23,886 nt of DNA, from the IMG/VR virus record IMGVR_UViG_3300005860_000066, positions 1 to 23,886 of that record; one strand, given 5' to 3'. The notes under the pieces are model-generated. The model had not been told where the DNA came from. It was given only the letters and a program-made list of their open reading frames with translations, and did not search any database. The stretch is from a virus. A program made the translations under genes and the position numbers. Below are positions 4,743 to 22,995 of the stretch, piece after piece (positions within the stretch are counted from its first letter, which is position 1; each line of letters begins with the position of its first letter).

Positions 4743-4898
4743 ATGAGTAAAATCTACTTGACAAAAGAAGAAATTCAAATTATAATTCAAATTATAGAGA
4801 ATACAACAGCAAATGTTAAGCAAACAGAAGAAATTTTATTGCCATTATTGACAAAATTAAGGCAAATGCTTATAGAAGAAAATGGAGACAAAACTTAA
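4743..4898 (+). CDS. Small helical protein, 51 aa, unknown
   Basis: An ATG-initiated frame encoding MSKIYLTKEEIQIIIQIIEN at its start and ending in EENGDKT. It is mostly helical with an isoleucine-rich amphipathic stretch at residues 11-18 and a second helix (ILLPLLTKLRQML) at 31-43. It overlaps the next gene by 17 nt in another frame, the dense packing seen across the window. A near-perfect promoter lies inside it, so part of this sequence may be selected as DNA and coding is less certain. I recognise no family. Confidence 0.45.
   Translation: MSKIYLTKEEIQIIIQIIENTTANVKQTEEILLPLLTKLRQMLIEENGDKT
4758..4786 (+). promoter_or_regulatory. Consensus sigma70-type promoter ahead of the lysis genes
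   Basis: TTGACA at 4758-4763 and TATAAT at 4781-4786, separated by exactly 17 nt; the start of transcription would be near 4793. It lies inside the 51-aa frame and points toward the endolysin and holin, so it could uncouple lysis from structural transcription. Confidence 0.65.
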
Positions 4899-5145
4899 GG
4901 AAAAAGCAGAATTATTACTTGATTTTTTTGGATTTGACAAAAGTAAAGTTGAAATAAATACTGAATTTAAACCTGCAAAGGGCTTTAATATAACTTTTTC
5001 TACAAAGGATGAGCAATTTATAAAAAAATTGGTCGGGAAAAGGGGAAATATGGCTAATCTATTTAGAAGAAACTTCAAAAAATTAGGAATTATTAATGGA
5101 TGCAACATAAATTTTTATGTGCTTCCATTAAAACAAAATGGTTAA
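4882..5145 (+). CDS. Small KH-like protein, 87 aa
   Basis: The protein has an N-terminal helix (ETKLKEKAELLLDFFGF), a beta strand pair (KVEINTEFKPAKGFNITFST), and then EQFIKKLVGKRGNMANLFRRNFKKLG. The segment LVGKRGNMANLFRRNF looks like the helix-GxxG-helix of KH RNA-binding domains (I-G-K-R-G-x-x-x-x-x-L), with GKRG at about residues 52-55. A final strand (NINFYVLPLK) would complete a minimal KH fold. Known KH domains bind single-stranded RNA or DNA. It is shorter than most KH proteins and the call rests on one motif, so confidence is modest. An RNA-binding protein is of interest given the RNA elements in this genome, but no link is shown. It overlaps its neighbours at both ends. Confidence 0.5.
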   Translation: METKLKEKAELLLDFFGFDKSKVEINTEFKPAKGFNITFSTKDEQFIKKLVGKRGNMANLFRRNFKKLGIINGCNINFYVLPLKQNG

Positions 5146-8545: not shown

Positions 8546-8555
8546 GGGAGGTGAT
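8546..8555 (+). promoter_or_regulatory. Shine-Dalgarno GGGAGGTGAT
   Basis: Near-perfect complement of the 16S 3' end. It places the start at ATG 8560; the in-frame GTG at 8551 is inside the binding site and so is not the start. Confidence 0.85.
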
Positions 8556-8559
8556 AAGA

Positions 8560-9213
8560 ATGTTGAATAAACTCCTTGCAGACTATTGCAGGAAGGTGTA
8601 TCTATCTGGACATTCAGAACCAGTCCAGATAGGTGTGTATCGTCCATCTGTCTTATCCTGGTCCTGTATCAGGAAGCAGTGGAATTACTACAAATTCTTA
8701 TCTGGGAAAAAAGCAGAGGAAATCCCAGATGATATTATCCTCTTGCTTGCAGGCGGAGTAGTATTCCACCGCTTGATACAAGGACTAAAAGATGAACAAG
8801 GAAGACCTTACTGGGATAAGACAGAGATTGAATGCTCCATAGAAGTTAATGTTGCAGGAGGAGAAAAGATTAAAATCATAGGACACGCTGATGCTATAAG
8901 AGGAAAAGGAATGGATAAAATAGTCTACGAGTTTAAGCATGTTAGGCAACTTCCTAACAAGCCACAATTCCCGCATCTCCTGCAACTAAACTTCTATTTA
9001 GGAGCATTGGGTGTTAATAGGGGAAGCTTGCTTTATGTAGGATATCTTCCTCATGGGGGTTTGGCTGTTAAAGAGTTTGGCTGGCTTTATTCAAACTGGC
9101 ACATGGAACATTTAATTGCAAGGGCACAGATGTTGCATACCTTGTTAATCCACAATGAGGCTCCTCGCTGTAGTTGTAAAAATAGAGTTCACGAACTCGG
9201 ACAACTAATTTAA
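8560..9213 (+). CDS. Cas4-like PD-(D/E)XK nuclease
   Basis: A 217-residue protein with the Cas4/RecB-type nuclease order: C36 in SWSCIRKQWNYYK, H70 in GGVVFHRLIQG, D111 in IGHADAIRG, E124 and K126 in VYEFKHV, and Q142 in LLQLNFYLG. Two C-terminal cysteines sit at 204 and 206 (CSCKNR). Typical Cas4 proteins use one N-terminal and three C-terminal cysteines for an iron-sulfur cluster; here only two C-terminal ones are seen, so the cluster is doubtful. The chemistry would be metal-dependent DNA cleavage. No cas1, cas2 or CRISPR array is present. The gene is richer in GC-ending codons than its neighbours, uses a Shine-Dalgarno site and is co-transcribed with the protease. It may serve recombination, or be defence or anti-defence; context favours an acquired accessory role. 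Confidence 0.75.
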   Translation: MLNKLLADYCRKVYLSGHSEPVQIGVYRPSVLSWSCIRKQWNYYKFLSGKKAEEIPDDIILLLAGGVVFHRLIQGLKDEQGRPYWDKTEIECSIEVNVAGGEKIKIIGHADAIRGKGMDKIVYEFKHVRQLPNKPQFPHLLQLNFYLGALGVNRGSLLYVGYLPHGGLAVKEFGWLYSNWHMEHLIARAQMLHTLLIHNEAPRCSCKNRVHELGQLI

Positions 9214-9222
9214 GGAGGTGAT
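9212..9222 (+). promoter_or_regulatory. Shine-Dalgarno AAGGAGGTGAT
   Basis: It overlaps the nuclease stop codon and sets the protease start at ATG 9227, eight bases after AGGAGG; GTG 9218 and ATG 9221 lie in or too close to the site. Confidence 0.85.
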
Positions 9223-9226
9223 GAAA

Positions 9227-9952
9227 ATGTTGTTGACTCGATGCTCTAAACGCGGGATTGTATTGCATAAGGTGGGAAAAATCAAAGATGTGGAGATGAG
9301 GGCAGTGAGAGGAATAAGACCCTTTATTTTTGTAAGGGAGCAGAATAAGGTTATGGACTATCCAATCCCAACGCCGCATTTACTTCCACTTCCATTCAGA
9401 CGCTTCTGCTGTTTTATAGGAGTTGCGACCCCAGAAGGAACTTGGTTAGGTTCAGGAGTTCTAACAGAGTTGGGAATTATCTCGGCCTTTCACTTGTTTC
9501 GATATCCGCGCATAGAAGAGGCTTGGGCTACATTCATCCTGGAGAATGGAACACTGACAAGTTTCAATCTTTACGATGTCTTAGCAGAAGAACCATCACA
9601 GGATTTCATAATTCTACTCCCACCACACCTATCTGGATACTTCAAACCAGTTAAGCTTGGATGGTATAGTCACGTTCCTTTCAACAAAAAGCACATTGTG
9701 GGATTTGGATGTCCAGAAGGTCTGTTAGGAACTATCTGGAGGCCGGAATATGTTGCATCAGATAACTACATGCTTTACACCAAAGGCTTTGCTTGCGGTG
9801 GAGTTTCAGGAGGAGGAATGTTCACTCTCTATAACAATGAATGGTATCTATGGGCAATCAACTCGGTTTACTTCCTTCAGTCTCGAACACTGATTTCCAG
9901 AATGGTAAGATTCAAGGAAAGGAAAACAGGGCGGAGAAAACCCACGAGATAA
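9227..9952 (+). CDS. Trypsin-like serine protease
   Basis: A 241-residue protein with the trypsin-fold triad in the right order and spacing: H89 in GIISAFHLF, D126 in EPSQDFIILLP, and S194 in GFACGGVSGGGMF (GxSGG). The strand before the histidine (GVATPEGTWLGSGVLTE) is the usual one for trypsin-like and S1C/HtrA-like cores. There is no signal peptide and no PDZ domain, so it likely acts in the cytoplasm. Its only partner is the upstream Cas4-like nuclease, 13 nt away. Trypsin-like domains joined or linked to nucleases are known in bacterial conflict systems, which makes a defence or superinfection-exclusion role plausible; prohead maturation is the main alternative but it lies far from the head genes. 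Base composition and ribosome site differ from the phage norm. Confidence 0.75.
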   Translation: MLLTRCSKRGIVLHKVGKIKDVEMRAVRGIRPFIFVREQNKVMDYPIPTPHLLPLPFRRFCCFIGVATPEGTWLGSGVLTELGIISAFHLFRYPRIEEAWATFILENGTLTSFNLYDVLAEEPSQDFIILLPPHLSGYFKPVKLGWYSHVPFNKKHIVGFGCPEGLLGTIWRPEYVASDNYMLYTKGFACGGVSGGGMFTLYNNEWYLWAINSVYFLQSRTLISRMVRFKERKTGRRKPTR

Positions 9953-13605: not shown

Positions 13606-13639
13606 TTGCCCCAATGGTCAATCTCGGTTATAATTGGGG
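13606..13639 (+). promoter_or_regulatory. Promoter with overlapping inverted repeat (possible operator)
   Basis: TTGCCC at 13606-13611, 17 nt, TATAAT at 13629-13634, with a predicted start near 13641, directly at the following start motif. An exact inverted repeat, CCCCAAT (13609-13615) and ATTGGGG (13633-13639), spans the -35 to the start site. It could be a repressor site. In a transcript from upstream it could also fold as a hairpin. Confidence 0.55.
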
Positions 13640-13641
13640 TG

Positions 13642-13652
13642 GTCGGAATTAA
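13642..13652 (+). promoter_or_regulatory. Start motif GTCGGAATTAA for the transglycosylase
   Basis: It ends 13 nt before ATG 13666, which decides that start over an in-frame TTG 60 bases upstream that would run through the promoter. Confidence 0.8.
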
Positions 13653-13665
13653 CATTTTTAAGGAA

Positions 13666-14106
13666 ATGGAAAGCCCGAAAAAATGGCTAAAATTGGGAAT
13701 TTTTATCCTAATTTTAGCCTTGATAATAGGAATAATATGGACAAAGAAAAAACGAATAATAACAATTATACCAGAACAAGCCAATCAAGTAGAACAGCAA
13801 GACACGGATTATTATGAGCAGTTAGCAGAAAAGTTAATAATGTGTGAAAGCTCGGGAAAAGATAAAGCAATAAATTTAAAGGATAGAGATGGTACAGCTT
13901 CATTCAGTTATCTTCAGTGGAAACCAGAAACCTTTAAAGAATATGCGATAAAATACGGAATAATAGGAGAAAAAGCAAGTTGGAATTATATAATGACAAT
14001 CATCTGGAATAGAGATATCAATAAGTATTTAGTCATACAGATATTAAAAAATGAGCCAGAAAAAGTCAAATTCTTATGGCCAGTTTGCAGTAGAAAAATA
14101 AAATAG
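13666..14106 (+). CDS. Membrane-anchored lytic transglycosylase-like protein
   Basis: A 146-residue protein. Residues about 8-26 form one transmembrane helix (LKLGIFILILALIIGIIW) behind a short basic N-terminus, then a basic stretch and a linker. The domain from about residue 48 starts YYEQLAEKLIMCESSGKDKAIN, the helix of SLT/lysozyme-like folds with the catalytic Glu as E61 in the C-E-S-S-G motif. RDGTASFSYLQWKPETFKEYA follows, matching the usual D-x-x-G-x-x-S-x-G-x-x-Q-f-x-x-x-T-F. It would cut the glycan strands of peptidoglycan at the outer face of the membrane. It may help DNA entry or act as a second lysis enzyme; it has its own promoter, away from the endolysin. Confidence 0.7.
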   Translation: MESPKKWLKLGIFILILALIIGIIWTKKKRIITIIPEQANQVEQQDTDYYEQLAEKLIMCESSGKDKAINLKDRDGTASFSYLQWKPETFKEYAIKYGIIGEKASWNYIMTIIWNRDINKYLVIQILKNEPEKVKFLWPVCSRKIK

Positions 14107-14597: not shown

Positions 14598-14607
14598 GTC
14601 GAATTAA
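14598..14607 (+). promoter_or_regulatory. Start motif GTCGAATTAA with long spacer
   Basis: The spacing to ATG 14650 is 42 nt, far outside the usual range; the extra length is mainly the 11-mer repeat that follows. Confidence 0.55.
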
Positions 14608-15994: not shown

Positions 15995-17314
15995 ATGGAA
16001 AAAGTAAGTTTTCAAAAGTTAGCAAACTTTACACCAAAACAAAAACTTTTTTTAGAATTAGTGAAAAACTATAGATATACGCTGTTAAGTGGAGTTGTTG
16101 GAACTGGGAAATCAAGATGTTTAAGATGGACTTTGTTATATCTCCTCTTAAAATACGCTTCTAAAGGCTATACAGGCTTACAAGCAGGCTTATTTTGTAA
16201 TACATATCCAGAATTAAATGATAGGCATTTGAAATATATTAAACAAGAATTTCCTAATTGGTTAGGAACTTATAATGAACAAAAACACGAATTTAGATTA
16301 TTTGAAGAATACGGAGGTGGAATATTAGCATTTAGAAACCTTGACGAACCTATGAACTACCGCTCCGTGGAATTTGCTTTTATAGGAGTAGACGAATTAA
16401 CACAAATTCCTAAAGAAACTTTTGATATTTTGATAGAAAGAAATAGATGGGCAGGATTAAAAGATGTTAAATTTATAGCAGCATCTAATCCGGTTGGACC
16501 ATATAAAGAATGGGTAAGAAGACTATTTATTGAAAAACAATTAGAAAATTCCGCAGTTTTATATCTTTATAAGGGTGATAATCCATATTTACCAGAAAAC
16601 TATTATGAGGAATTGGCTAAAAATATGGATGAACCATTAAAAAAGGCTTTACTTGAAGGTGATTGGTATGCTTTAGATGATATACAAGACAAAGAAGGCT
16701 ATTTACCCCTATTGACATCAAAACAATTAAATGATGCAATTATAGACTATCAATATACCTTTGATACTGCAGTTTTAGGAATAGATCCAGGAGCAGGAGG
16801 AGATAACACAACAATTGTTATAAGAGATAATTCAATAGCAAAAATTCTATTCAATAAACAACTTTCTGATACTATGCAAATCTTACCTTTAATAGCAGAT
16901 TATTATCAAAAATATAGGCTTTATGGGATTGTTATAGATATCACAGGAATTGGAAAAGGAATTTATGATAGACTAAATGAAATAGGCTTATTTTTAAAAA
17001 CTTTAGGAATATCTTTTGGACAAAAAGCAGAGGAACCAAATAGATTTTTCAATAAAAAAGCAGAACTATTTTGGAAATTAAGAGAATGGATTTTAAAAGG
17101 AGGAAAACTTTTAAAAGATAATGGATGGAATGAGTTATTGGAAATCAAATATAAGCATCAATCTGATAAAGTTATTAGAATTCAACCCAAAGAAGAACTA
17201 TTGAAAAAAGGTATAAAATCTCCTAATGTTGCTGATGCATTAGCCTTGACATTTGCAATAGATTTAGAACAATTACAGCAATTAAAACAATTTGAAATAT
17301 ATGAAATCTATTGA
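15995..17314 (+). CDS. terL: Terminase large subunit
   Basis: A 439-residue packaging motor and nuclease. The ATPase domain has Walker A GVVGTGKS at 33-40, Walker B FAFIGVDE at 127-134 (D133, E134) and the coupling motif AASNP at 162-166. The RNase H-like nuclease has D264 in LGIDPGAGGD, D315 in IVIDITGIG and D414 in SPNVADALAL, the three metal-binding acids in order. Length and motif spacing fit the Terminase_6 type fold. It drives DNA into proheads through the portal and cuts the concatemer. It has its own promoter. Confidence 0.93.
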   Translation: MEKVSFQKLANFTPKQKLFLELVKNYRYTLLSGVVGTGKSRCLRWTLLYLLLKYASKGYTGLQAGLFCNTYPELNDRHLKYIKQEFPNWLGTYNEQKHEFRLFEEYGGGILAFRNLDEPMNYRSVEFAFIGVDELTQIPKETFDILIERNRWAGLKDVKFIAASNPVGPYKEWVRRLFIEKQLENSAVLYLYKGDNPYLPENYYEELAKNMDEPLKKALLEGDWYALDDIQDKEGYLPLLTSKQLNDAIIDYQYTFDTAVLGIDPGAGGDNTTIVIRDNSIAKILFNKQLSDTMQILPLIADYYQKYRLYGIVIDITGIGKGIYDRLNEIGLFLKTLGISFGQKAEEPNRFFNKKAELFWKLREWILKGGKLLKDNGWNELLEIKYKHQSDKVIRIQPKEELLKKGIKSPNVADALALTFAIDLEQLQQLKQFEIYEIY

Positions 17315-17468: not shown

Positions 17469-17897
17469 ATGGGAAAAGATTTGACAGGTTTATTAGTAGT
17501 TCAGGTTGATAAGGAAGAAGTAAGGAAAAAACATCCTGATTGGCTTGTAAAATTCCATAAATTTTGGATTTTAAAGAATGAAATTAAGGAAGAATTAAAG
17601 GAATTTATGAAGGAATTTATATGGAAATATGCAAAAGAAAAGAATTATGAACTCTATGACGAGGTTGTTGTAAGAGAACTTCCTGATAAATTCGTAGTTT
17701 ATGCTCTTGCTTATCCAAGAACTCCATTAGGTTTTTGGAAAAAATTAAGGCTAAAAAAGGAATTAACTCCAGAAAAATTTATTCAAAAAGTTAATGAGAT
17801 TTTAGCACAATACGAATTCGAAATGATAACACCAGAGATTATACAAAGAGACGAAGAACAGGAAATCTTGTCGGCAATTAATAAACAAAAATCATAA
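17469..17897 (+). CDS. Hypothetical protein between terminase and portal, 142 aa
   Basis: Helical and charged (WLVKFHKFWILKNEIKEELK), then EVVVRELPDKFVVYALAYPR and a final helix. There is no motif for a known enzyme. The position between terminase and portal is typical of small packaging or head-assembly proteins. The stop overlaps the portal start by one base, so translation may be coupled. Confidence 0.55.
   Translation: MGKDLTGLLVVQVDKEEVRKKHPDWLVKFHKFWILKNEIKEELKEFMKEFIWKYAKEKNYELYDEVVVRELPDKFVVYALAYPRTPLGFWKKLRLKKELTPEKFIQKVNEILAQYEFEMITPEIIQRDEEQEILSAINKQKS
17870..17881 (+). promoter_or_regulatory. Start motif GTCGGCAATTAA for the portal
   Basis: It has two bases between GTCG and AATTAA, encodes LSAIN in the upstream gene and ends 15 nt before ATG 17897. 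Confidence 0.75.
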
Positions 17898-19843
17898 TGC
17901 TACCATACGAAAAGCAATTTAAGGATTTGACAGAATGGACAGAAAAAGAAATTTTAGAAGAAATTTCAACACAATTTAGAGAAAGCGAGCAAAATACTTT
18001 ACAAAAGAAAACATATTGGACAGAATACATTAAACTTTATCTAAATCAAGAAAGAAAAAAAATAGGAGATTTAGCAGTTGGCTCTAATCTTCTATTTTCA
18101 CAATTTAACGATATTTATGCTTCTATTGACAATGATGATTTATTGGTAAGTTTTAAAGAAAGAAATCCAAGAGATGCAGAAGTTGTTCAATTTACAAATT
18201 GGGTTGCAAGATTTGATTTTGAAGAAATGAATTTATCAGCATTACAAAGAGAACTCTTTTGGGATGTTTTATTCTTTGGAACGGGATTATATGATGTTTC
18301 AGAATACGATAAAAAAAGAAAGGTTATAAAAGTAAGACTTCAATCTCCATTTACATTTTTTATAGATCCATTGGCAAATTCAATAGAAGAAGCAAGATAT
18401 GCAGGAAGATATGTTTATATGACACCATATGATTTAATGCAAGATGAAAGATTAGATCCTGAAAAAGTTAAAAAAATCTTATCAACAAGTTCTCCAAAAT
18501 CAATAGAAAAAATTACATTAGAAGAAAGAGCAAAAAATATATTGCTATTAGAAGGCTATAACTATTTCCAATATCAACATTCCAATGCTTATTTAGAGAT
18601 TTTGGAATGGTATATGTATGCTAATGGAAAATTATGGGTTGTATGGACAGATAATGGAATAACAACAATTTTAGGATTTAAAGAATTGAAATATGAAGAT
18701 GGAGGTTCAGGAAAAAGCAAAATTCCATTTGTTGCATATTACTATATAAAAACTCCAAGAGGATTTTGGGGGATAGGAATTCCTGATATTTTAGAAAGTG
18801 CGCATAGAACTGCGGTTTATCTACAAAATCTTATGCTTCAAGGAATAAGAATTGATGTAACTCCTTCCTTCCTAATAAATCTCCAAGCAGTTCACAATCC
18901 AAGAGATTTATTGACAAGAGAAATAAATAAAATTGTATGGACAAAAGTTCCACCAGCAGGACAAATTCAGCCATTTCCTAAAACTCAAGCAGTATCAAGC
19001 GATGTTTTAGCATTCTACAATATGATAATTAATGAAGCAATGGGAGCAATAGGAAGCCAAAGAATTTTAAGAGGTTCATTAGGACAGATAAAGAAAACTG
19101 CAACAGAAGTTGCTATAGCAAAAGCAAAACAAGACTTACAAATAGCATCTCATATGAGAAACATTTTAAGAGGAGAAAGAGACTTTTGGTATAGATGGTT
19201 AAAAAGACATAAGAAATTCTTAAGTAAAGATGATACAAAACTTGTTGAAATTATAGGAACTTATGGAGCAAAACAATTTGTAGAGGTTAGAAAAGAGGAT
19301 TTTATTCCAGCAGTAGATCCAATTATAGAAATTACATCTTCTTTGGTAGCAGAACCAACAAAGATTGTAAGAAGAAGAGATTTAGCAGAAGTTTTGCCAT
19401 TAATAGGAGAAATGGGAGGAAATCCAAAAGCAGGATTGAAAATGATTTTAAGAGATATGGATTTATCGCCAGAACAAATTGATATTCTATTACCTCCATC
19501 TCCTCATCAAATAAAGGCAAGGAAAGAAAATGAATTATTAGAAGAGGGAATATGGGTAGATATAGATGAGCAAGATAATGATAATGAGCATTTAGAAGAG
19601 CATTACAAACTTCAAGAAAATGATGTTGTAAGATTGCACATTGAAGCACATATAAAAAATATTCTTTTGAAGCAAAGAATGAAACAACCACAACCAGCAA
19701 TACCAGCAGAAGGAGAAATACCAGAAGAAGAAATAGAAATGGGAACTCCTCAAGAAGTGCAGAAAGAATTAACAAAAGAAATTCCAATAGAGGGAATTGA
19801 AGCATTGAGAGGTGCGATAAGGCCATCAATGCCACAGAAGTAA
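17897..19843 (+). CDS. Portal protein
   Basis: A 648-residue protein of the large portal type. The region with FWDVLFFGTGLYDVSEYD at about 121-138 and VRLQSPFTFFIDPLANSIEE at 146-165 is the conserved portal core, where position of the D-P pair and the G-T-G turn are typical. A long alpha-helical stem region follows (IILNEAMGAIGS-like stretch near 375-385, where helices ring the channel). The C-terminal part has acidic helices (NEHLEEHYKLQENDVVRLHI) and a proline/glutamate-rich tail. Twelve copies would form the vertex ring through which DNA passes. Location right after terminase fits. Confidence 0.88.
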   Translation: MLPYEKQFKDLTEWTEKEILEEISTQFRESEQNTLQKKTYWTEYIKLYLNQERKKIGDLAVGSNLLFSQFNDIYASIDNDDLLVSFKERNPRDAEVVQFTNWVARFDFEEMNLSALQRELFWDVLFFGTGLYDVSEYDKKRKVIKVRLQSPFTFFIDPLANSIEEARYAGRYVYMTPYDLMQDERLDPEKVKKILSTSSPKSIEKITLEERAKNILLLEGYNYFQYQHSNAYLEILEWYMYANGKLWVVWTDNGITTILGFKELKYEDGGSGKSKIPFVAYYYIKTPRGFWGIGIPDILESAHRTAVYLQNLMLQGIRIDVTPSFLINLQAVHNPRDLLTREINKIVWTKVPPAGQIQPFPKTQAVSSDVLAFYNMIINEAMGAIGSQRILRGSLGQIKKTATEVAIAKAKQDLQIASHMRNILRGERDFWYRWLKRHKKFLSKDDTKLVEIIGTYGAKQFVEVRKEDFIPAVDPIIEITSSLVAEPTKIVRRRDLAEVLPLIGEMGGNPKAGLKMILRDMDLSPEQIDILLPPSPHQIKARKENELLEEGIWVDIDEQDNDNEHLEEHYKLQENDVVRLHIEAHIKNILLKQRMKQPQPAIPAEGEIPEEEIEMGTPQEVQKELTKEIPIEGIEALRGAIRPSMPQK

Positions 19844-20717: not shown

Positions 20718-20728
20718 GTCACAATTAA
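20718..20728 (+). promoter_or_regulatory. Start motif GTCACAATTAA for the scaffold gene
   Basis: It begins at the base after the stop codon of the zinc-binding gene. The raw distance to ATG 20771 is 42 nt, but a perfect 28-nt hairpin lies in between, leaving 14 nt when folded. Confidence 0.75.
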
Positions 20729-20733
20729 CCTTC

Positions 20734-20761
20734 CTTGCCATAATGCTCCCGTTATGGCAAG
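20734..20761 (+). other. Spacer hairpin upstream of the scaffold gene
   Basis: CTTGCCATAA pairs perfectly with TTATGGCAAG around TGCTCCCG. There is no T-tract. Folding it brings the start motif to the usual distance from the start codon. Confidence 0.8.
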
Positions 20762-20770
20762 AGTAAAAAA

Positions 20771-21274
20771 ATGGGCGAAGAACTACAAAATCAAACAGAG
20801 GAACAGGTTCAGGAAGAACCAGTTCAAGAAACTCCTGAACCTAAAGCAGAAGAAAAAATTGAAGAAATATCTCCAGTCAAGATATTGAGAAAGAAGTATG
20901 AAGATATATTGAGAGAAAATAAGCAATTGAAAGAAGAAATAAAGAAACTAAAAGAAGTTGTCTCTATATCAGATGTCAATACTCTTATATCAAAACTCAA
21001 CAAGTTAGAACTGGAGAATGTAATACATAAGCAATATCCAGAACTTGCTGGGGAAATTGATAAGATTTTAGAAATGAGAAAACCAGATGAACCAATTGAA
21101 GATACAATTGCAAGATATATAGGAAAGAAAGCATTAGAAAGTCAGAAAACAGAGGGAATTAGGTCGTCTAATTTAGGTGCAATTCCCTCTGAACCCGATA
21201 TCATAAATCTTCCTAAAGAAGAAAGAGATAAAATAGCAGAAGAATTATTTAAAAAGGTGTATGGAATAGAATAA
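20771..21274 (+). CDS. Scaffold-like protein
   Basis: A 167-residue acidic and coiled-coil protein. Residues 1-35 are a low-complexity acidic tail (QEEPVQETPEPKAEEKIEE); residues 42-75 form a coiled coil (YEDILRENKQLKEEIKKLKE); the C-terminus is helical with charged patches (KEERDKIAEELFKKVYGIE). It lies directly upstream of the major capsid gene, the usual place for scaffolds, which assemble the prohead and are then removed. No protease gene is adjacent. Confidence 0.75.
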   Translation: MGEELQNQTEEQVQEEPVQETPEPKAEEKIEEISPVKILRKKYEDILRENKQLKEEIKKLKEVVSISDVNTLISKLNKLELENVIHKQYPELAGEIDKILEMRKPDEPIEDTIARYIGKKALESQKTEGIRSSNLGAIPSEPDIINLPKEERDKIAEELFKKVYGIE

Positions 21275-21318
21275 GAAATCAGAGTAATCGTGGTTTGGAG
21301 GGAATGCTGTAATTAACA

Positions 21319-22254
21319 ATGGCGGTTACTAATACTACAAACCTTGAGAGTGCCCAAAAGGCATTTGGAATTTACTGTGACACTGTAGTCATAGAATCCT
21401 TGCAACCAAATCTATACTTTGAGCAATTTGGGACAATTGTAAAGGTTCCTGAGGGTAATTATACTTCAAGGTTCTTTACATTCACCCCAATTGCCACAGC
21501 TTCTGTTACTCAATTAATAGAAGGCACAGCACCTACTGCAATTTCAGTTTCTGTAAATGGAATTGATACAACTCCAACACAATATGGTGTAAATGTTCAA
21601 TTAACAGATTTAGTAGCATTAACTGCAGTATTTGACTTGATAAAAACAACTCTTAATGAAGTTGGTAAAGCAATGGCAAGAAAGATTGACCAAGTTATTC
21701 AAACTGTAGTTAATGCGGGAACAAATGTTGTATATGCTGGAACTGCAACCTCAAGGGCTTCTCTAACTTCGAGTGATTTGATTAGCGCAACATTGATTAT
21801 AAAAGCAGTTCAGAAATTGAGAGCAAATTCTGCTCCTGAATATGCAGGAGGTGGCTATGCTTGCGTTTTACACCCATTTGTAGGTTATGATTTAATGAGC
21901 AATACTTCTGCGGGACAATGGATTGATGTTCACAAATATGCAATGCCTGAAAATATCTTCAGGGGTGAAATTGGTTCATTGGGTGGAGCAAGGATAGTTC
22001 AATCTCCTCATGTTCAGCCATTCTCTTCAACTGTTACTGTTTATCCAACAACTTTAATAGGTGCTGATGCCTATAGAATTGCTTACTGGTTGCCAAATAA
22101 AGTATCTACATATGTATTACCTCCTGAAACAACTCTCTCTGTTGACAACCCATTGGGACAACTTGGTTCAGTGGGTGCCAAGGTTAACATGGGAGTTGCA
22201 AGAACTCAGGAGGAAAGATTAATAAGAATAGAATCTGCTGCATCTTCTCTATAG
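21319..22254 (+). CDS. Major capsid protein, N4-gp56-like
   Basis: A 311-residue HK97-fold capsid protein. Residues 184-192 (LHPFVGYDL) and 213-230 (IFRGEIGSLGGARIVQSP) match the conserved core of the N4-gp56 capsid family, and an N-terminal LQPNLYFEQFG with VPEGNYTSRFFTFTP fits the E-loop region. The C-terminus is LGSVGAKVNMGVARTQEERL. The leader differs from the others: GGAGGG at 21297-21302 is 16 nt before the ATG, and GCTGTAATTAA lies only two bases before it. GC-richer codon choice (GCT, ACT, CAA) is visible, as expected for a very highly expressed gene. Confidence 0.88.
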   Translation: MAVTNTTNLESAQKAFGIYCDTVVIESLQPNLYFEQFGTIVKVPEGNYTSRFFTFTPIATASVTQLIEGTAPTAISVSVNGIDTTPTQYGVNVQLTDLVALTAVFDLIKTTLNEVGKAMARKIDQVIQTVVNAGTNVVYAGTATSRASLTSSDLISATLIIKAVQKLRANSAPEYAGGGYACVLHPFVGYDLMSNTSAGQWIDVHKYAMPENIFRGEIGSLGGARIVQSPHVQPFSSTVTVYPTTLIGADAYRIAYWLPNKVSTYVLPPETTLSVDNPLGQLGSVGAKVNMGVARTQEERLIRIESAASSL

Positions 22255-22268
22255 TGATGTAAATTAAA

Positions 22269-22300
22269 CCCCCGGGAGGAGGCAATCTTCCTCCCGGGGG
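22269..22300 (+). other. Strong hairpin after the major capsid gene
   Basis: A 14-bp stem, CCCCCGGGAGGAGG (one G-U pair), closed by CAAT. The stem locks a Shine-Dalgarno-like GGAGGAGG. There is no U-tract, so it is not a classical terminator; it may protect the capsid mRNA. It sits between an ATTAA (22263-22267) and the next ATG; removing it leaves 15 nt. Confidence 0.8.
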
Positions 22301-22314
22301 AGATAGAAAACTTT

Positions 22315-22995
22315 ATGGCTATAACAATTCAGAAAATTTTTGATAAAACAAGAAAATTAGCAAAAACTTCTTCTGCAATTTTAACTGATGCTAAATTGTT
22401 TGATTTAACAAATGAAACTTATTTGGATATTCAAAGAGCATTAGCAAATGAGGGAATAGAGATTTTAGGAACAATACAAAAAACTGATTTAGTAGCAGGA
22501 CAAGAAAACTATCAGTTGCCAACCGATATGTTGGCAATTTTAAGATTGGAGATAAATTATGAGGATGCAACAGATGATACAAAATGGAAAAAGATGTCTC
22601 AAAGTGATTTGGGAAATTTACCTTATGAATGGTATGAACTTTTAAAAAAGCAACCAATTTCTAAACCATTATATGACCTTTTTAATGCTCAATTATTTGT
22701 TTTTCCCAAACCAACAACTAATCAAACAGCAGGATTAAGAATTTGGTATATTCAAAGACAACCAGATTTTACAAATACAAGTGATAGCATACCACAGATT
22801 TTAGATAACTATTGGGATGTTTTTTGCTATGGAAATGCTTGGAGATATTTAGAGGAAGTGGGAGAACCACAAGCAGATAGATATATGCAATTATATCAAG
22901 CCTATTTACAAAAAATGATTGCAGATTTAAAGACAGAAGTTATTGAACCAATTAAAATTACAATACCACCATACTTTTGCAATGGATGGCTTTGA
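22315..22995 (+). CDS. Head-tail connector/adaptor protein
   Basis: A 226-residue protein downstream of the capsid gene. It begins with helices (ITIQKIFDKTRKLAKTSSAI, NETYLDIQRALANEGI). YQLPTDMLAILRLEI near residue 63 and NAQLFVFPKPTT near residue 125 follow, with WYIQRQPDF near 142; these stretches appear in adaptor and tail-tube A-like proteins of podoviruses. It is followed by ILDNYWDVFCYGNAWRYLEE and a helical C-terminus. The family call is from memory and context. It would plug the portal and join head to tail. Confidence 0.65.
   Translation: MAITIQKIFDKTRKLAKTSSAILTDAKLFDLTNETYLDIQRALANEGIEILGTIQKTDLVAGQENYQLPTDMLAILRLEINYEDATDDTKWKKMSQSDLGNLPYEWYELLKKQPISKPLYDLFNAQLFVFPKPTTNQTAGLRIWYIQRQPDFTNTSDSIPQILDNYWDVFCYGNAWRYLEEVGEPQADRYMQLYQAYLQKMIADLKTEVIEPIKITIPPYFCNGWL

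Follow-up and report, generated by a model that had tools for sequence, protein, structure and literature searches.

The question raised by this locus is how a gene start can be read across an RNA hairpin that separates the start signal from the AUG. The locus belongs to a viral record with a GC content of 31.8%, and the whole stretch analysed, referred to here as the window, is 23,886 bases long. An earlier note on this DNA had claimed that hairpins in front of two genes, the scaffold gene and the connector (adaptor) gene, bring a start motif back to its usual distance from the ATG. Both leaders lie where that note had placed them (Table 1). Relatives strengthen the scaffold half of the observation and speak against the connector half. 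Gene 20771 owes the name scaffold to its place only, having no family match; a scan for relatives of its protein found none, and tblastn of the portal protein against named phages gave no match. Relatives were gathered through the head protein, the adaptor and the terminase, together with a scan for the hairpin pattern.

Table 1. Genes and leader elements of the window
Feature	Position	Strand	Description
Strict motif before gene 14650	14598..14607	+	42 nt to ATG 14650; fold 0 kcal/mol
Large terminase subunit	15995-17314		profile match
SU10-type portal	17897-19843		profile match
Scaffold start motif	20718..20728	+	GTCACAATTAA; 3 of 4 GTCG + ATTAA
Conserved RNA hairpin	20734..20761	+	12 bp; loop CUCC 20746-20749; apex U-G-CUCC-C-G 20744-20751
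3′ spacer to ATG	20762..20770	+	9 nt; GUA 20763-20765 invariant in 25/25 rows
Scaffold-position gene	20771..21274	+	167 aa; position before major head protein
Major head protein	21319..22254	+	phrog_1357, E 1.9e-56; PF25209
ATTAA, earlier "connector motif"	22263..22267	+	judged outside any start site
GC-rich hairpin	22269..22300	+	14 bp; 14 nt after head-protein stop, 14 nt before ATG 22315
Adaptor (connector) gene	22315..22995	+	PF24175 SU10_adaptor, E 3e-17

The start motif is bipartite. In its strict form, GTCG and ATTAA separated by 0-3 nt, it occurs 17 times on the + strand of the window and never on the − strand. Across 34 stretches, comprising the window, its relatives and other contigs, there are 72 strict sites, 58 of which have, no more than 90 nt away, the start of an ORF of at least 40 codons; the distance from motif to start is 13-18 nt in 47 of these 58, with a peak at 13-16 nt. 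Strand bias and spacing together indicate that the genome-wide value on which the earlier note relied is real. A bare ATTAA half-site carries no weight, because AATTAA is not enriched in the window (78 observed against 90 expected). The leader of gene 14650 is a counter-example to a need for folding inside the window itself, being hairpin-free with its motif at 42 nt, and no clear ordinary spacing can be read from the homologues of this gene. The earlier note mentioned neither this leader nor the fact that its connector "motif" is a bare ATTAA.

In the scaffold leader the motif also stands 42 nt from the ATG, and folding out the hairpin leaves 5 + 9 = 14 nt. The same arithmetic, 42 nt minus a 28-nt hairpin, applies to a looser motif in seven relatives. 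The hairpin had been called perfect; it is present but not literally perfect, since one of its 12 bp is U.G. The leader RNA folds at -18.1 kcal/mol (z -3.06, with 0 of 200 shuffles as good). The window contains five hairpins of at least 12 bp, and 20 dinucleotide shuffles of it contain 0.45 on average, which puts both the scaffold and the connector hairpin beyond chance. A terminator scan of the + strand scored neither of them as an intrinsic terminator, and among the covariance models of Rfam 15 the scaffold hairpin reaches no family's gathering cut-off.

The structure is conserved among relatives. The alignment holds 25 distinct hairpin copies from 19 contigs, without L010 and L038 and without L164, which was found later. 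Pairing is kept in 99.7% of 298 possible pair cells (shuffled mean 82.2), both sides have changed at 8 of the 12 pairs, with 51 such cells against 11.7 in shuffled alignments, and sliding the partner by 1-3 columns lowers pairing to 40-54%. Covariation in homologous leaders that keeps the folded distance within 12-16 nt had been proposed as a check, and for the scaffold hairpin both covariation and a folded distance of 14 nt were found. Letters of the stem differ among copies; near-fixed positions are the apex U-G-CUCC-C-G, the GUA flank and the pairs CU/AG. The U.G pair adjacent to the loop is present in 25 of 25 rows and would become an A.C mismatch on the opposite strand, and in sum 48 of the 298 cells are U.G pairs that would be mismatches if read on that strand. 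Such pairs form only in sense-strand RNA, which argues against a double-stranded DNA operator. A signal at the DNA level, whether a palindromic operator or part of a promoter, is therefore highly improbable. It would account for an inverted repeat and would have a parallel in the homologues of window gene 20421 (L007, L009, L012, L015), where the motif GGTCGTAATTAA sits within the 17-nt spacer between TTGACA and TATAAT, but what is conserved in the scaffold hairpin is the pairing and not the letters of the stem. In the promoter of those homologues the -10 box ends about 8 nt upstream of the ATG. Overall, these data support a conserved sense-strand RNA structure, and the covarying set supplies ready compensatory mutants.

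A covariance model of the hairpin (R1) finds the window copy, which is part of the model, at 60.8 bits (E 3.6e-11), and 14 of 23 sources at E < 1e-6, most of these being the model's own sequences. A search with it of 200 host-order genomes gave two matches, both in one family. The copy in one MAG (G015) is absent from the model, has a new stem and precedes a homologue of the scaffold gene.

The place of the hairpin is also conserved. It ends 8-10 nt before the ATG in 21 of 23 start-proximal copies and 26-27 nt before it in the other two (L016, L038). The motif was scored in the 24 nt upstream of the hairpin, where 7.8% of 20,000 random 24-mers score at least 7 of 9; this score is reached in 19 of the 23 start-proximal copies (the window and 18 others). 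In L016 the hairpin precedes the best motif, AAAAGGGCGTA, which stands 9 nt from the ATG. Hairpin-free homologues of the scaffold gene that still have the motif at 42-47 nt would have refuted the earlier note; none was found among the relatives, so that for this gene the refutation did not materialize.

Tandem copies of this start unit separate the hairpin from the motif. The unit is duplicated in L003, L008, L011, L012, L024, L027, L059 and L061, and also in L010, where the first hairpin differs. All nine upstream copies retain the full hairpin and none has a motif score of at least 7; motif scores of start-proximal and upstream copies differ by U-test (p 4e-5), with rows that are not phylogenetically independent. 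This comparison at first included 17 start-proximal and 7 upstream copies and in its final form 23 and 9, with L016, L038, L059, L063, L061 and L164 added and the second, downstream copy of L010 left out of motif scoring. An ATG 3-9 nt downstream of each of the nine upstream copies opens an ORF of 3-12 codons (3-8 codons in the eight contigs listed), and these copies may thus still start translation. The predicted peptides include MGV, MPRA and MPWV.

These observations bear on the possibility that the hairpin does nothing but repair spacing at the scaffold gene, its letters being irrelevant, in the style of T4 genes 25 and 38. The folded-out 14 nt equals the usual distance of ordinary genes, and the T4 genes, as described in the available part of PMC3014915, provide a precedent. 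However, the apex letters and the flank are near-fixed although the distance does not need them, the stem persists in upstream copies whose motif is poor, the hairpin lies 26-27 nt from the ATG in L016 and L038, and gene 14650 manages without a fold. Pure spacing repair is therefore unlikely. The role in spacing claimed earlier stands for the distance in the scaffold leader and fails as the sole purpose of the hairpin, because the hairpin is kept where no spacing is repaired and its apex letters are kept although spacing needs none.

We lean slightly towards a hairpin that controls translation of the scaffold gene and loops out of its non-Shine-Dalgarno start site. The hairpin would lie inside the spacer of a start site of the form (G)GUCG-N-AAUUAA, about 14 nt, AUG, and the ribosome would tolerate it because, once it is looped out, the motif stands as far from the AUG as in other genes. 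As an operator or enhancer, the hairpin would act as a control element of the scaffold gene, with a candidate ligand, either a protein or some other factor, reading its apex. Such a factor would be the simplest account of why hairpin and apex are retained together. Autoregulation of a scaffold is known from P22. The displaced hairpins of L016 and L038 count against a control hairpin as well. So does the distribution of one candidate reader, an 87-aa protein at 4882-5145 in which a KH-like GKRG stretch is seen by eye and which has no Pfam or PHROG match; it was rejected as a universal reader of the hairpin, being matched in only one of ten relatives.

A role in mRNA processing or stability could take the place of translational control. 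Hairpins stand at three adjacent junctions, before the scaffold gene, after the head protein and before the adaptor, and their stems are strong; they could bound processed segments near the head genes, either as RNase III-type sites or by protecting 5′ or 3′ ends. This explanation is quite unlikely, as a generic end needs neither a fixed apex nor the 8-10 nt to the AUG found in 21 of 23 copies.

Known systems resemble the proposed control hairpin in part; what is said here of T4 and RB69 follows the portion of PMC3014915 that is available. In T4 genes 25 and 38, RNA structure shortens the start spacing from 27 to 11 nt and from 22 to 5 nt, respectively, and these structures are kept only in close relatives (PMC3014915). 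The scaffold leader is alike in that a structure between start signal and AUG gives a working distance, here the ordinary 14 nt; the connector leader has no such arrangement. It differs in that its signal is non-Shine-Dalgarno, whereas that of the T4 genes is Shine-Dalgarno (PMC3014915), and in its near-fixed apex and its tandem copies, of which the upstream ones have lost the motif. Another example is the operator of T4/RB69 gene 43: its hairpin stands some 40 bases ahead of the initiation codon, operator sequence extends to the ribosome-binding site, and the polymerase is the ligand (PMC3014915). Like that operator, the scaffold hairpin is conserved at the top and variable in the lower stem, and as in a translational operator its apical letters stay the same on a stem that covaries; the ligand of the gene 43 operator is known (PMC3014915), whereas that of the scaffold hairpin is only putative. 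The scaffold hairpin is unreported in the literature searched, which lay mostly outside subscription journals and included the available parts of PMC6509639, PMC6851277, PMC12641178 and PMC10783764. It is thus a well-supported, undescribed RNA element before a phage scaffold gene, one that joins three questions seldom open to a common test: non-Shine-Dalgarno gene starts, the way a ribosome deals with a hairpin that separates signal from AUG, and capsid timing in phages of Patescibacteria.

The connector leader differs from the scaffold leader. Its hairpin folds at -31.4 kcal/mol (z -4.13, with 0 of 200 shuffles as good). Fifteen relatives have a different hairpin in the adaptor leader, with 13 aligned bp and the fixed apex UGGGGUUGCUCCCUG, in which 99.5% of 195 cells pair and 6 of 13 pairs have changed on both sides; this version is absent from the window, L002, L013 and L016. 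In all 15 aligned relatives an ATTAA lies between the hairpin and the ATG, 11-14 nt from the latter. Because this order holds in 15 of 15, the connector hairpin is outside the motif-to-AUG spacer, and the claim that it restores spacing there is not supported. The ATTAA at 22263 of the window has no counterpart at that place in relatives and is a lone half-site in AT-rich DNA. The structured mRNA start site argued for in the earlier note is thus upheld by a covarying sense-strand hairpin at the scaffold gene and falls away at the connector gene.

The best explanation of the connector hairpin is that it is an element separate from the scaffold hairpin. It is probably a divergent counterpart either of the adaptor-leader hairpin of the relatives or of a terminator behind the head-protein gene. 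Most relatives have a GC-rich hairpin after the head-protein stop, followed by a T run in L006, L007, L009-L012 and L044. That 22269-22300 is a leaky terminator, or protects the 3′ end of the head-protein mRNA, has almost an even chance: the hairpin occupies the place past the stop where these seven relatives have hairpins with T runs, but no T run follows it on the + strand of the window, and the terminator scan scores it on the − strand only. In most of the post-head hairpins of L006, L009-L012 and L044 the inner sequence is CTGGTGATGAGCCAG, and in several cases the next gene has GGTCATAATTAA about 14 nt before its ATG.

The phages probably have hosts in a family of Parcubacteria. One relative, with 80% head-protein identity, belongs to a Candidatus Parcubacteria MAG (KatS3mg096). 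Another MAG of the same family contains a second scaffold hairpin. Such a host is probable and not proven, because binning may mislead. The 16S tail of the KatS3mg096 MAG reads GGACCAATTCCTTT in place of the canonical GGATCACCTCC. The family provided 14 16S loci, and CCUCC is absent from all 12 readable tails (L069, L091-L099, L101, L102), those of L090 and L100 not being found by pattern. Most of the 12 read GGACCAATTC. Genes of the family lack a Shine-Dalgarno sequence and have TATAAT 6-12 nt before the ATG. Bacteroidota (Flavobacterium) likewise start genes without Shine-Dalgarno sequences, according to the available parts of PMC10783764 and PMC6847099; the present case differs from that described in PMC10783764 in having an upstream motif and a Parcubacteria tail without CCUCC. 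The literature searched contained nothing joining the anti-Shine-Dalgarno with Parcubacteria.

Start signals were counted before 421 ATG starts in 480 kb of the main contig of the KatS3mg096 MAG. GGTCG occurs 19 times against 3.3 expected, AATTAA 96 times against 41 and TATAAT 85 times against 14; GGAGG, with 8 against 6.6, does not rise above background. The excess of GGTCG and AATTAA indicates that the phage motif is shared thinly by the likely hosts. In the phages, bipartite (G)GTCG-N-AATTAA is dense, both in the window and in L030-L047. No clear excess of GGTCG was seen in G020, G025 and G027, where numbers are small. Simple base pairing between GGUC and a GACC in the 16S tail is not supported, as G012, with the tail GGAATAAATC, still has GGTCG before starts 6 times against 0.8 expected. 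A motif marking operon-internal genes only was also rejected, since GTCG is equally frequent before first and internal operon genes in four host genomes and the phage set. TATAAT is commoner before first genes in G011, G012 and G023, not in G017 and not in the phages. The GTCG frequencies fit a per-gene start signal and do not prove action in RNA, where the motif presumably acts. A wider proposal can be made only tentatively and is somewhat doubtful as a whole: the Parcubacteria family without CCUCC and its phages would use a new bipartite start signal for operon genes, (G)GUCG-N-AAUUAA some 14 nt ahead of the AUG, the scaffold gene would be read across a looped-out regulatory hairpin whose UG-CUCC-CG apex is fixed, and the duplicated copies would drive the mini-ORFs.

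Other leaders have features of their own. Genes 8551-9213 and 9218-9952, the first of which matches phrog_1706 (CRISPR/Cas associated), have strong Shine-Dalgarno sequences (AGGGAGGTGAT and AAGGAGGTGAT, respectively) without the motif, in a genome that is otherwise poor in them. An AT-rich 14-bp hairpin (GGCTAAAATT...AATTTTAGCC, 13685-13719) is located close to where ORF 13606-14106 begins. Head-protein leaders of L016 (4907-5000) and L002 (1440-1535) form a long hairpin with the motif, or a variant of it, in the loop, and at about 1080-1120 of L004, in the leader of gene 17469, GGAC...GTCC flanks a variant of the motif.
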